Below, one piece after another: positions 18,673 through 40,377 of a stretch of 64,000 nucleotides of DNA (position 1 is the stretch's first letter; every line of letters begins with the position of its first letter). The position numbers and the translations under genes were made by a program. A model generated the notes under the pieces. That model ran no database searches and was not told the DNA's origin. It saw only the letters and a program-made list of their open reading frames with translations. The stretch lies in assembly GCA_021229015.1 (NCBI GenBank), contig CM037794.1, positions 44,266,644 through 44,330,643 of the forward strand. The letters run 5' to 3'. The stretch is from Solen grandis (taxonomy: Eukaryota > Mollusca > Bivalvia > Adapedonta > Solenidae).

Positions 18673-19058
18673 GACATTTAAATATTAACATGGTAACATT
18701 GTTGTTTTTATTCTTTGTAATCGGTGGACGTTTTTTAAACACATTCTTAACAAGATACAGAGAGAAGAAGCGGTAAAAATAGATATAAACAAACTCGAAT
18801 AGTAAACTTGTTGTATAGATATTAAGCGGCATATTTTCCGAAACATTTTCTTATTTAGAAATGCTGCATATAAAGCACCAGCATATGAAAACACATAAAG
18901 TCATATACATTACAAAACAAAACAATATTTGTATGAAGGAAGTCATCTAAGCTTAGAATGTCAAGTTCACAAAAATGGAATCGCAAAAGAAGCAAATATT
19001 GACATTGAAACTAATTACATGTCACAGCACCTATAACTCACAATAGGGGAGAATCATA
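18673..19058. other. Intergenic, nothing recognised
   Basis: AT-rich; short frames on the minus strand have no domain. Confidence 0.4.
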
Positions 19059-19285
19059 TGTAAGCGGCCGGGTAGCTCAGTCGGCAAAGCATTCGTCCTG
19101 TAAGCGAAAGGCCCCGGGTTCGAGATGCGATCAGGCTGCATATTTTTCTCACCCTGTGACATTTGGCGCCCAACGTGAGACTGTGGCATCTGTGCTAGGT
19201 ATGTCTAAGACACCTGCACATGATTATATTTACCGTGTAACTCCTAGAATTCAGGGACCAATTCCAAAATGGAGAGGGATAATGG
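19059..19285 (+). mobile_element. LTR-like terminus with tRNA-like unit, tRNA-Lys primer site and purine tract (TRIM relative)
   Basis: The terminus starts 'tgtaagcgg' and ends 'ccctgtgaca' at 19,161 (TG...CA). The sequence TGGCGCCCAACGTGAGAC at 19,164-19,181 closely matches the complement of the tRNA-Lys(CTT) 3' end as I know it. A roughly 100-base non-coding interior follows, ending 'gaattcagggacc' and the purine-rich 'atggagagggataat' (near 19,270-19,285). The same interior plan is at 37,983-38,104. No second terminus is seen on the right, so the element is truncated or the right LTR is lost. The terminus holds a tRNA-like sequence (separate entry). Confidence 0.65.
19064..19140 (+). promoter_or_regulatory. 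tRNA-like sequence with Pol III A/B boxes inside an LTR-like terminus
   Basis: The A-box-like TAGCTCAGTCGG starts at 19,074. The B-box-like GGTTCGAGATG is at 19,117-19,127, with the last two positions off consensus. An anticodon-type arm TTCGT/GCGAA encloses a seven-base loop. The 'gcggccgg' start pairs with the 'tcaggctgc' end with one mismatch. A T5 run follows at 19,143-19,147. Position 33 is not a clean U, so I do not call it a functional tRNA gene. Confidence 0.6.
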
Positions 19286-35992: not shown

Positions 35993-37705
35993 TCAGTTCT
36001 CTGTCAGCTGGAATTCCTGCACGTGATCACTCCATCTACCGCCCACGTACATTCGGTCTCCCTTGGGACTGAGGCCGATGGCCTCGGGCTGCTTACACAA
36101 ACCGTCTTCATCCCCCAGGATCTGTGTGGACCGGTCACCTGTAGCGGTCACAAGATGGACGGTTCCATTAACAAAACAGACAAACACTGTCCCCGCCCTG
36201 TCCACTGTAACACCGCGGGGTGTGTCCAGTCCCTTCAACTTGGTCATCACTGAATAGTCACGTATACTAATACTGGTCAGCGTGCCTTTCCCATTGTCAG
36301 AAACATATAAGATCCCGGAACAAGGACTGACCGCGAGGTACCATGGTTCATAAAACTGTTGAGCCCCGCCATGATCTGTCTGGAGTCTCCACAGGACTTG
36401 TCCGTCCAGGTCCAGAATCTCAACTTTCCCCTCGTATTTCCCCGGCCGGCCATAACTCACCGCGAGTTTTCTGTCCTGAGTGACCTTGATTCCCCGACAC
36501 CGACCTTTAACAGAGATGACCTTGTCCGTGTCCGTGATCTGGTCATTGGTCACACTGATGTAACGGAGGCTACTGGCACCAGGCATGGTAACGATGAGGT
36601 CACGAGTTGCTGATTCCTCGGTGACGTCACGGGGCACGAGCGCCGTGTCCCAGGGAGGGAAGGGGAGGCGGATCCGAGATACGATCTGGTTACGTTTTGT
36701 GTCGACAAGTTTGACAGAATCGTTCCTGAAGTCACAGAGGACGACTTTGTCCTGATCCAGAACACAGATACCTGTGATAATACATGTCTTGTCTGACTTA
36801 CTTCTCACTTGTATATTCCTCACGTGTTTTACCTTCATGTCATGTCGGCGGACGTGCAGCTTCCCAAGGGTTTTAAATGAAGACTGCACGTTCTGTACTT
36901 GCACGTCCGGCTCAAATCTGTACCGCGTGACCCTGTTCTTTGAATGTATTGACTCGATCTCTGACTGAAACTCCGCCATTTTCTTCTCAGTTTTTTTCAT
37001 AGCGACAAAGAGTTTATTATTTTGGTTTTTATTTAATTTTTCATCGAGTTCTGCAGAAAGATTCTGCAGGTCGGTTTCCATGGTTACACAACTCCTGGAT
37101 ATATTGTCCATAACTGATATGTCGCTTACGGCTATTTGATCAATTTCTCGCACAATAGTCAGTTCCAGTTTATCAAAGAATCTTACTAATTCCTCCTTCA
37201 TTTGCCGAACCTGCGACCTCGTCTCCTCTTTAAGTTGTTCAATGGCGGCCTTGTTTACGTCTGCTGTTTCTTTGTTTTTCCTCACTCGCTCAATCAATTC
37301 CGACATGTTATCACGGAGATAGGAAAACTCCCGACTGTTTCCGATGTCTTTCGTCTCGTCTAGAATGAAACATACACCACAATTTCCATGATTTAAAGTC
37401 ACACACACAGAACAGAGAATGTCTTTGTGTTTCTTACAGTAATGCTCCAACAAGCGACCATGTTTCTTGCATTGTTCAGTTAAGGGGTCAGTTGGTATAA
37501 CTTTCTCCTTTGGCATGGACACTTGATCTAACATCACGTGGTCTCTCCATATTAATGGGACACAGTGAACTTTAAAACAACTCTCGCACAAGTGATGTTT
37601 ACAAGTGTCGCAGAAGCCTTGTGCAGATCTGGATTTTCCGCCAACACTACAAGGATAACAGAGGAGAGGATCACATTCCTCGGACAGATTTGTGGCTTCA
37701 GCCAT
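35993..37705 (-). CDS. TRIM-like B-box / coiled-coil / beta-propeller protein without RING
   Basis: 570 residues from ATG 37,705, with no internal stop and higher GC than its surroundings. A first B-box-like zinc module uses Cys16, Cys19, Cys32, Cys35, Cys40, Cys43 and His47. A second B-box uses Cys79, His82, Cys90, His93, Cys98, Cys101, His106 and Cys109. A long charged coiled coil follows (about 130-255), then propeller-like repeats from about 300: ITGICVLDQDKVVLCDF at 310-326, EPWYLAVSPCSGILYVSD at 453-470, TPRGVTVDRAGTVFVCFVNG at 495-514 and PEAIGLSPKGDRMYVGG at 540-556. This order is that of TRIM/NHL-type proteins (cytoplasmic, often ubiquitin- or RNA-linked). With no RING, E3 activity cannot be assumed. 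The open frame runs 70 codons further upstream, but that part crosses a splice acceptor (37,776) and an antisense LTR, so this ATG is preferred. Substrate unknown. Confidence 0.9.
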   Translation of the reverse strand: MAEATNLSEECDPLLCYPCSVGGKSRSAQGFCDTCKHHLCESCFKVHCVPLIWRDHVMLDQVSMPKEKVIPTDPLTEQCKKHGRLLEHYCKKHKDILCSVCVTLNHGNCGVCFILDETKDIGNSREFSYLRDNMSELIERVRKNKETADVNKAAIEQLKEETRSQVRQMKEELVRFFDKLELTIVREIDQIAVSDISVMDNISRSCVTMETDLQNLSAELDEKLNKNQNNKLFVAMKKTEKKMAEFQSEIESIHSKNRVTRYRFEPDVQVQNVQSSFKTLGKLHVRRHDMKVKHVRNIQVRSKSDKTCIITGICVLDQDKVVLCDFRNDSVKLVDTKRNQIVSRIRLPFPPWDTALVPRDVTEESATRDLIVTMPGASSLRYISVTNDQITDTDKVISVKGRCRGIKVTQDRKLAVSYGRPGKYEGKVEILDLDGQVLWRLQTDHGGAQQFYEPWYLAVSPCSGILYVSDNGKGTLTSISIRDYSVMTKLKGLDTPRGVTVDRAGTVFVCFVNGTVHLVTATGDRSTQILGDEDGLCKQPEAIGLSPKGDRMYVGGRWSDHVQEFQLTEN

Positions 37706-37775: not shown

Positions 37776-37800
37776 TCTGTTAAAAGAAATGAAAAAAACT
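37776..37800 (-). other. Splice acceptor before the coding exon of the B-box gene
   Basis: On the minus strand 'tttcatttcttttaacag' precedes 'acactgtgcg', a pyrimidine-rich acceptor 70 bases before the ATG. It implies a 5'-UTR intron and explains why the open frame upstream of 37,776 is not coding. Confidence 0.6.
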
Positions 37801-37832: not shown

Positions 37833-37982
37833 TGTAGCCGGGTACAGGTATTTGGTGATAAATCAATAGGCAAATTAAGCCACGAGTGTCTCGATAGCTC
37901 AGTGGTAGAGCGCAAGAACGGTAGTCATGAGGCCCTGGGTTCGAGTCCCTGTCGGGACATGATTTTTTCACCACCTGTTACA
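37833..37982 (+). repeat. Left LTR of the miniature element
   Basis: 150 bases, TG...CA. Its second half is a tRNA-like sequence; a T6 run lies 14 bases before the end. Confidence 0.85.
37888..37960 (+). promoter_or_regulatory. tRNA-like Pol III unit inside the left LTR
   Basis: A seven-pair acceptor stem GTCTCGA/TCGGGAC, a D-arm, A-box TAGCTCAGTGG (37,895-37,905), a T-arm and a perfect B-box GGTTCGAGTCC (37,938-37,948) are present. The anticodon stem has one mismatch in this LTR and none in the right LTR. The seven-base loop ACGGTAG lacks U33, so decoding function is unlikely. T6 at 37,963-37,968 could stop Pol III. Confidence 0.75.
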
Positions 37983-37984
37983 TT

Positions 37985-37997
37985 TGGCGCCAAACGT
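37985..37997 (+). other. Primer-binding-type site
   Basis: TGGCGCCAAACGT starts two bases after the left LTR. The relative at 19,164 has TGGCGCCCAACGTGAGAC, close to the complement of the tRNA-Lys(CTT) 3' end. The match here is shorter and one base off. Confidence 0.65.
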
Positions 37998-38092
37998 AAA
38001 TACCTACTGTTTGATATAGCTACTGCTTCGGCACCTCAAGAACTTTTCACAATGTTCTTTGTCTCAGAGAATTCGGGACGAATTCTAAATTT

Positions 38093-38104
38093 GGAGGGGG
38101 AATA
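38093..38104 (+). other. Polypurine tract
   Basis: GGAGGGGGAATA directly before the right LTR, the position expected for plus-strand priming. Confidence 0.65.
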
Positions 38105-38252
38105 TGTAGCCGGGTACAGGTATTTGGTGATAAATCAATAGGCAATAAGACATGAGTGTCTCAATATCTCAGTGGTAGAGCGCAGGAACGGTAGTCCTGA
38201 GGCCCTGGGTTCGAGTCCCGGTCGAGCCATGGTTTTTTCACCACCTGTTACA
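38105..38252 (+). repeat. Right LTR of the miniature element
   Basis: 148 bases; same ends as the left LTR. Its tRNA-like unit (38,158-38,230) has an intact B-box (38,208-38,218), an A-box with a G-to-T change and a weaker acceptor stem. Confidence 0.85.
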
Positions 38253-39495: not shown

Positions 39496-40377
39496 GGTGA
39501 GTGAGTGAGTGAGTGAGTGAGTGAGTGAGTGAGTGAGTGAGTGAGTGAGTGAGTGAGTGAGTGAGTGAGTGAGTGAGTGAGTGAGTGAGTGAGTGAGTGA
39601 GTGAGTGAGTTGAGTGAGTGAGTGAGTGAGTGAGTGAGTGAGTGAGTGAGTGAGTGAGTGGTAGTGAGTGAGGAGTGAGTGATGGTGAGTGAGTGAGTGA
39701 GTGAGTGAGTGGTGAGTGAGTGAGTGAGTGAGTGAGTGAGTGAGTGTGAGTGAGTGAGTGAGTGAGTGAGTGAGTGAGTGAGTGAGTGAGTGAGTGAGTG
39801 AGTGAGTGAGTGAGTGAGTGAGTGAGTGAGTGAGTGAGTGAGTGAGTGAGTGAGTGAGTGAGTGAGTGAGTGAGTGAGTGAGTGAGTGAGTGAGTGAGTG
39901 AGTGAGTGAGTGAGTGAGTGAGTGAGTGAGTGAGTGAGTGAGTGAGTGAGTGAGTGAGTGAGTGAGTGAGTGAGTGAGTGAGTGAGTGAGTGAGTGAGTG
40001 AGTGAGTGAGTGAGTGAGTGGTGAGTGAGTGAGTGAGTGAGTGAGTGAGTGAGTGAGTGAGTGAGTGAGTGAGTGAGTGAGTGAGTGAGTGAGTGAGTGA
40101 GTGAGTGAGTGAGTGAGTGAGTGAGTGAGTGAGTGAGTGAGTGAGTGAGTGAGTGAGTGAGTGATGGGGAGTGAGTGGTGAGTGAGTGAGTGAGTGAGTG
40201 AGTGAGTGAGTGAGTGAGTGAGTGAGTGAGTGAGTGATGAGTGAGTGAGTGAGTGAGTGATGATGTAGTGAGTGATGTGGTGAGTGAGTGAGTGAGTGAG
40301 TGATGTGAGTGAGTGAGTGAGTGGTGAGTGAGTGAGTGAGTGATGTGAGTGAGTGAGTGAGTGGATGTGAGTGAGTA
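39496..40377 (+). repeat. Long (GTGA)n array, ~880 bp
   Basis: More than 200 tetranucleotide units with scattered one- or two-base slips, denser toward the right end. It starts at the last base of the LINE 3' UTR, so it may be an expanded retroelement tail. Its true length is uncertain in any assembly. Confidence 0.95.

Follow-up and report, generated by a model that had tools for sequence, protein, structure and literature searches.

A probable Helenus element of Solen grandis and hybrid insertions that name a candidate partner lineage

Results and Discussion

The 420 bp unit at positions 37833..38252 of the Solen grandis window (the whole stretch of DNA analysed, 64,000 nucleotides) is very probably a Helenus element, that is, a TRIM whose LTRs contain a tRNA-like unit and that moves by LTR-type mobilisation. 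It is an old, diverged or recombinant copy of a recently mobile family, here called family A. The Helenus class itself is known; the production of its genomic RNA and the element that mobilises it are the questions addressed here, by means of hybrid insertions and of a T-run conserved near the LTR end. The main new result is a group of loci at which Helenus A is fused with a second LTR lineage, G, and by which one testable partner lineage is named from sequence alone.

Helenus elements were described by Kojima (2024, PMC10886601) as TRIMs of less than 1000 bp with a tRNA-like unit in the LTR, a primer-binding site (PBS) and a polypurine tract (PPT). That study covers 51 families in five orders of Pteriomorphia, with up to about a thousand LTR copies; the target site duplication (TSD) of animal Helenus is 4 bp, tRNA-Lys is among the bivalve primers, and a Thr-like tRNA is present in some bivalve families. 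The element analysed here has two LTRs, a short non-coding interior, a length below 1000 bp (420 bp in the target and 419 bp in the copies L002-L008), tRNA-like A and B boxes in the LTRs and a PPT before the 3' LTR. The primer site next to the 5' LTR is positioned as expected and is conserved among copies, and the 4-bp TSD is found in the family, not at the target. Family A is either new or an unmatched copy of a described family, since it is placed in Helenus by its anatomy and not by a sequence match to published families. The original prediction of an animal TRIM with a tRNA-like LTR was right as to identity; the class is not new, having been published in 2024 as Helenus/TRIMp3, bivalves included. 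Its observation was confirmed and its interpretation is partly supported.

Structure of the element

The target has the order LTR-interior-LTR and all its features are on the plus strand. Sequence reading and repeat comparison place the 5' LTR at 37833..37982 (150 bp, TG...CA) and the 3' LTR at 38105..38252 (148 bp). Both open with TGTAG and close with TTACA, and the pair differs by 10 substitutions and 2 gapped positions. Comparison of the copies gives a non-coding interior of 122 bp at 37983..38104 (123 bp in L002-L008). The 150/148-bp repeats and the 122-bp interior that had been proposed were thus borne out by sequence comparison, and the predicted primer-type site was found two bases inside the left LTR as TGGCGCCAAACG (37985..37996, sequence reading). 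All seven copies L002-L008 have TGGCGCCCAACGT at this site, one base apart from the target, and an LTR end followed by the target's variant was found at 3 places genome-wide by pattern search. The purine tract at the right LTR is also present (GGAGGGGGAA, 38093..38102, by eye), but it does not lie directly before the LTR as had been stated; two bases, TA, intervene.

Each LTR contains a tRNA-like unit, which ARAGORN calls tRNA-Thr(ggt) in both cases. The unit of the 5' LTR spans 37887..37960, with the A-box at 37895-37905 and the B-box at 37938-37948 by alignment, and the unit of the 3' LTR spans 38157..38230, with the B-box at 38208-38218. Their scores with the Rfam tRNA model are 52.3 and 39.9 bits, respectively, against a gathering score of 29 bits. 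The B-box GGTTCGAGTCC is perfect in both LTRs, while the A-box reads TAGCTCAGTGG in the left LTR and TATCTCAGTGG in the right, so that the right unit is damaged at this box. By sequence reading, a terminator-like T6 run follows at 37963..37968, 14 nt short of the 5' LTR end, and another at 38233..38238 in the 3' LTR. The predicted succession of tRNA-like unit, perfect B-box and T6 in each LTR is therefore present.

No target duplication was found in the flanks of the target. The copy is located approximately 130 bp upstream of the ATG of a minus-strand gene (35996-37705) coding for an NHL repeat (Pfam) and, by eye, for B-box-like cysteines. Between the copy and the ATG, near 37780-37800, is a splice-acceptor-like tract, and the target is therefore possibly in a 5' UTR intron. 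A database comparison of the neighbouring gene gave two distant matches, at 27-28% identity. A (GTGA)n tandem repeat of about 222 copies occupies positions 39497-40376 of the window.

Family A in the genome

A search of the genome with the 420-bp query gave 42 matches, 41 of them (the target included) near full-length with 95-100% identity; as 40 candidates were scored, the genome holds at least this number. When up to 3 mismatches are allowed, the terminal 29 bases of the LTR are found 649 times, compared with 0 for the reversed-pattern control; this count takes in the related lineage C, which has the same string. The seven best-scoring matches, L002-L008, are 419 bp each, have identical LTR pairs and a common 123-bp interior, and six of them are bounded by a perfect 4-bp TSD, while the seventh is located within a tandem array. 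The identical LTR pairs and the TSDs indicate that family A was recently active. LTR pairs without any difference were found at 9 loci in total (L002-L008, L019 and L031).

The LTR sites were surveyed in a sample of 100 exact sites listed in contig order, which is biased towards exact LTR ends on contigs C1-C4. Sequence was obtained for 71 of these sites (61 loci); 22 further sites form 11 pairs on the same strand at a distance of about 270 bases, which were counted as full elements by this spacing alone, and 7 were left out. The 61 sequenced loci comprise 23 of lineage C and 38 of family A. Simple full elements account for 18 of the 38 family-A loci but represent 16 distinct insertions, the flanks of L021 and L054 being found again at L045 and L055. 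A perfect 4-bp TSD is present in 13 of the 16 (L053 and L071 by eye). Six of the 38 loci are solo LTRs, four of them with a TSD (L068 by eye), and one (L075) is a truncated element. L037 consists of an LTR and 18 bases of the primer site, beyond which the DNA is unrelated. At L068 an inverted element was considered and rejected in favour of a solo LTR with the TSD TCAT near an older inverted LTR. The pairs L021/L045 and L054/L055, with the same insertion and flanks at two places, are duplicated segments or uncollapsed haplotypes. In L024 and L052 the start of the 5' LTR was apparently swapped for a short inverted copy of itself (GGCTACG).

The recurrence of the whole unit with 4-bp TSDs agrees with the claim of a TRIM-type LTR element with a tRNA-like, putative Pol III promoter in each LTR. 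Each new copy may seed such a promoter, as the original prediction proposed.

Other lineages and the conserved T-run

The window contains a second, decayed Helenus-like element of lineage B (19020..19283, plus strand), recognised by sequence comparison and Rfam. Its LTR spans 19020-19161, and the tRNA-like unit at 19066-19138 scores 26.9 bits, below the Rfam gathering score of 29. The LTR is followed by the primer site TGGCGCCCAACG and then by the interior; no 3' LTR was found for this copy. The site TGGCGCCCAACG is, we presume, complementary to tRNA-Lys. Lineage C has an LTR of about 155 bp and an interior of about 135 bp. In all seven loci with surroundings compared (L047-L049, L051, L056, L060 and L061) it is embedded in a larger repeat whose inverted ends are about 380 bp long; L013 and others are alike. 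Lineage C seems to be a fixed passenger of this multi-kilobase repeat and would have spread with it. Lineage D has an LTR of 141 bp with a B-box and T4, and the layout is common to B, C and D. No match to the Rfam tRNA model at E 0.1 was obtained for the units of lineage D or for the lineage B unit at the locus L063.

The pattern of a B-box, the LTR end CA, two bases and TGGCGCCCAACG occurs 486 times genome-wide (control 0). Among the 68 B-box/primer-site strings shown, 65 have a run of T4 or longer that ends 11-15 bases short of the LTR end; the three misses are two lineage D copies and one string unlike a B-box LTR. When a T-run 11-18 bases short of the LTR end is included in the pattern, 471 occurrences are found (control 0), the ratio to 486 being approximate because slightly different gap ranges apply in the two patterns. 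Many of the 486 LTR ends are copies of the same families, and the number of independent lineages is therefore small. The presence in one genome of several Helenus lineages, with the T-run kept near the LTR end in about 471 of 486 cases, is new relative to the literature.

The tRNA-like unit

Sixteen tRNA-like units from lineages A, B and C score 46-56 bits with Rfam, and four more score 26.9-39.9 bits. Compensated changes were counted in an alignment of 12 units by five measures with 500 shuffles; lineage D was excluded since the arm boundaries are unclear. Cloverleaf pairs are kept in 89.6% compared with 79.6 in the shuffles, double-change cells number 27 compared with 12.4 +/- 2.8, and the covariation score was reached by no shuffle. 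The two other measures were not clearly in excess: 8 pairs with a double change against 6.1 in the shuffles (reached by 48 of 500), and 22 pair types against 21.3 (reached by 217 of 500). Much of the covariation signal corresponds to the difference between B and A/C, which may therefore have separate tRNA origins.

Two other explanations of these repeats have to be weighed. The high covariance scores and the compensated stem changes are what would be seen if the units were conserved for a function as tRNA (Thr) or as tRNA decoys. Against this, the alignment gives the family A unit a GGT anticodon with C at position 33, and the Thr isoacceptors of eukaryotes normally use AGT. A functional tRNA was also judged unlikely by Kojima (PMC10886601), and we regard this explanation as very improbable. 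The other explanation is that two independent tRNA-SINE insertions happen to surround a spacer. A single repeat does resemble a tRNA-headed SINE (SINE2), whose head has tRNA-like A and B boxes as the Helenus LTRs have. Such SINEs are moved by non-LTR retrotransposons and have no LTR, PBS or PPT. Here the repeat-spacer-repeat unit recurs at 41 places or more with the same spacer and a single TSD around the whole, and the primer site and the purine tract are at the expected borders. Independent SINEs with unrelated spacers, which the original prediction had named as the finding that would overturn it, are ruled out by this genome-wide recurrence, and their probability is practically nil. Cassandra of plants (PMC7215508) is likewise described as a TRIM, with LTRs that contain a promoter and a terminator for Pol III, and forms tandem arrays, which also occur in family A, but its LTR carries 5S RNA where that of family A carries the tRNA-like unit. 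Rfam found no 5S RNA in the Helenus LTRs and listed tRNA instead. The bivalve element biv-TRIM, to the extent of the text available (PMC6934838), also forms tandem arrays, but its terminal repeats are 202-218 bp and its interior 77-80 bp, compared with 148-150 and 122-123 bp here; it is described without an unambiguous PBS, and no tRNA-like unit in its LTR is reported in that text.

Hybrid and inverted elements

Of the 38 family-A loci with sequence, twelve are hybrids or inverted elements, and four of these twelve have a TSD. Seven loci are hybrids with other lineages (L027, L036, L038, L046, L058, L059 and L063) and five are inverted A-A elements (L041, L044, L050, L062 and L078). The joint is at or in the primer site in nine of the twelve by eye, the exceptions being L050, L062 and L078. 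The locus L041 consists of an A LTR, the primer site and an inverted A LTR that starts in the T-run (TSD TACA); L044 of an A LTR, a partial primer site and, in inverted orientation, the first 14 bases of the LTR (TSD CTAA, by eye); and L062 of an LTR, the interior and an inverted LTR (TSD TAAT). L046 has the layout A-Bi-B-Ai-A, and the letters of its first LTR switch from A to B at the T-run (by eye). The composite L038 (1382-2982) contains, between A LTRs, inverted lineage D sequence and a frame coding for a C2H2 zinc finger, with a single TSD TATG outside, and is a possible gene capture. A TSD was sought and not found at L058, L050 and L046, and the flanks of L063 are inverted, not repeated.

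In L038 and L063 the A LTR is followed by TGGCGCCCAACGTGGGGC, a line that the family A interior matches for only 13 bases. The plus-strand strong-stop DNA of retroviruses copies 18 bases of the primer tRNA, and by analogy these joints may be strong-stop ends. The reading of the 18-base joints as copied primer tRNA is weakened by the interiors of lineages B and C, which continue in nearly the same letters (TGGCGCCCAACGTGGGAC; GTGGGGC in the B interior of L063), so that copying from B or C is an equal reading of both joints. The ends of L027 and L037 read GTGGGAC. Two primer sites joined as a palindrome were found at 6 distinct places, the joint being 38 bases long in each (control 0), and these could be copies of one event. 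The hybrids could also derive in part from recombination between genomic copies at the common 15 bases. Keyword searches of one open library, for inverted or strong-stop hybrids and for later Helenus work, found nothing closer, which does not prove its absence.

The G lineage as candidate partner

At L059 Pfam detects the domains Integrase_H2C2 (64.8 bits) and rve (56 bits) in one frame. This frame is followed by a 495-bp LTR called G, directly after it by the Helenus A interior, and then by the A LTR. G is a TGTAG...GTTACA stretch without a B-box and is taken as an LTR; these termini are common to G and Helenus A. At L027/L043 (89% identical) and again at L010 (two pieces, 88% and 80%) the primer site is where a Helenus LTR and an inverted G LTR are joined, and on the G side of the L027 and L010 joints the primer site is off by a base or two. 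With up to 3 mismatches allowed, 27 places have the G LTR end with the TGGCGYCCMACG site (control 0). The L059, L027 and L010 fusions make up three of these; one further string was read, and the remaining places are known by pattern match alone. The three fusion loci make the G lineage the best candidate for the partner of Helenus A. Kojima named Gypsy as the likely partner from primer-site similarity in bivalves (PMC10886601), whereas the evidence here is hybrid insertions with one LTR lineage. G would be Gypsy-like, judging from the integrase domains at one locus and from Kojima's argument. The frame upstream of L024, considered as a Gypsy integrase end, was dropped as no Pfam family matched.

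Transcription and proposed mechanism

In PMC10886601, the tRNA-like unit is suggested to serve in making the template RNA, Pol III is favoured, and the word "terminator" is used once, for Cassandra. From the features described above, we consider transcription of the Helenus genomic RNA by Pol III somewhat probable. The RNA would start in the 5' LTR region, close to the tRNA-like unit, read through the first T-run and end at the T-run of the 3' LTR. The T6 of the 5' LTR should stop Pol III, and read-through must therefore be assumed. This is also what speaks for the less probable explanation that Pol II makes the genomic RNA and the tRNA-like unit either gives a separate Pol III RNA of about 90 nt that stops at T6 or serves no purpose, since T6 inside the 5' LTR would end Pol III before the primer site; TATAAAA at positions 12-18 of the lineage D LTR is, in addition, a possible Pol II signal. 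However, no AATAAA was found in the family A LTR, several lineages retain the T-run close to the LTR end, and the joints of L041 and L046 lie in the T-run, as expected of an RNA end there. These joints favour an RNA 3' end at the T-run, but they are few, two in number, and A/T runs can be recombination spots.

If Pol III makes the genomic RNA, it would be packaged together with the RNA of a Gypsy-like element, a tRNA (probably tRNA-Lys) would prime reverse transcription at the primer site, and the resulting DNA would be integrated with a 4-bp TSD. We tentatively propose, as a possibility that falls short of being probable, that the read-through RNA has its R/U5 border at the T-run and an oligo-U 3' end for the first strand transfer. 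The Helenus lineages and their partner would swap templates in a Gypsy-like particle, and plus-strand strong-stop DNAs (LTR with copied primer site) could anneal end to end to give inverted U3-to-U3 hybrids that the integrase would still insert. With template swap and strong-stop annealing in a shared particle, the genome would hold a record of the RNAs packaged together. An RNA end that can be tested is given by the conserved T-run. The inverted insertions flanked by TSDs suggest that side products of reverse transcription, once integrated, can reveal the RNAs that share a particle.
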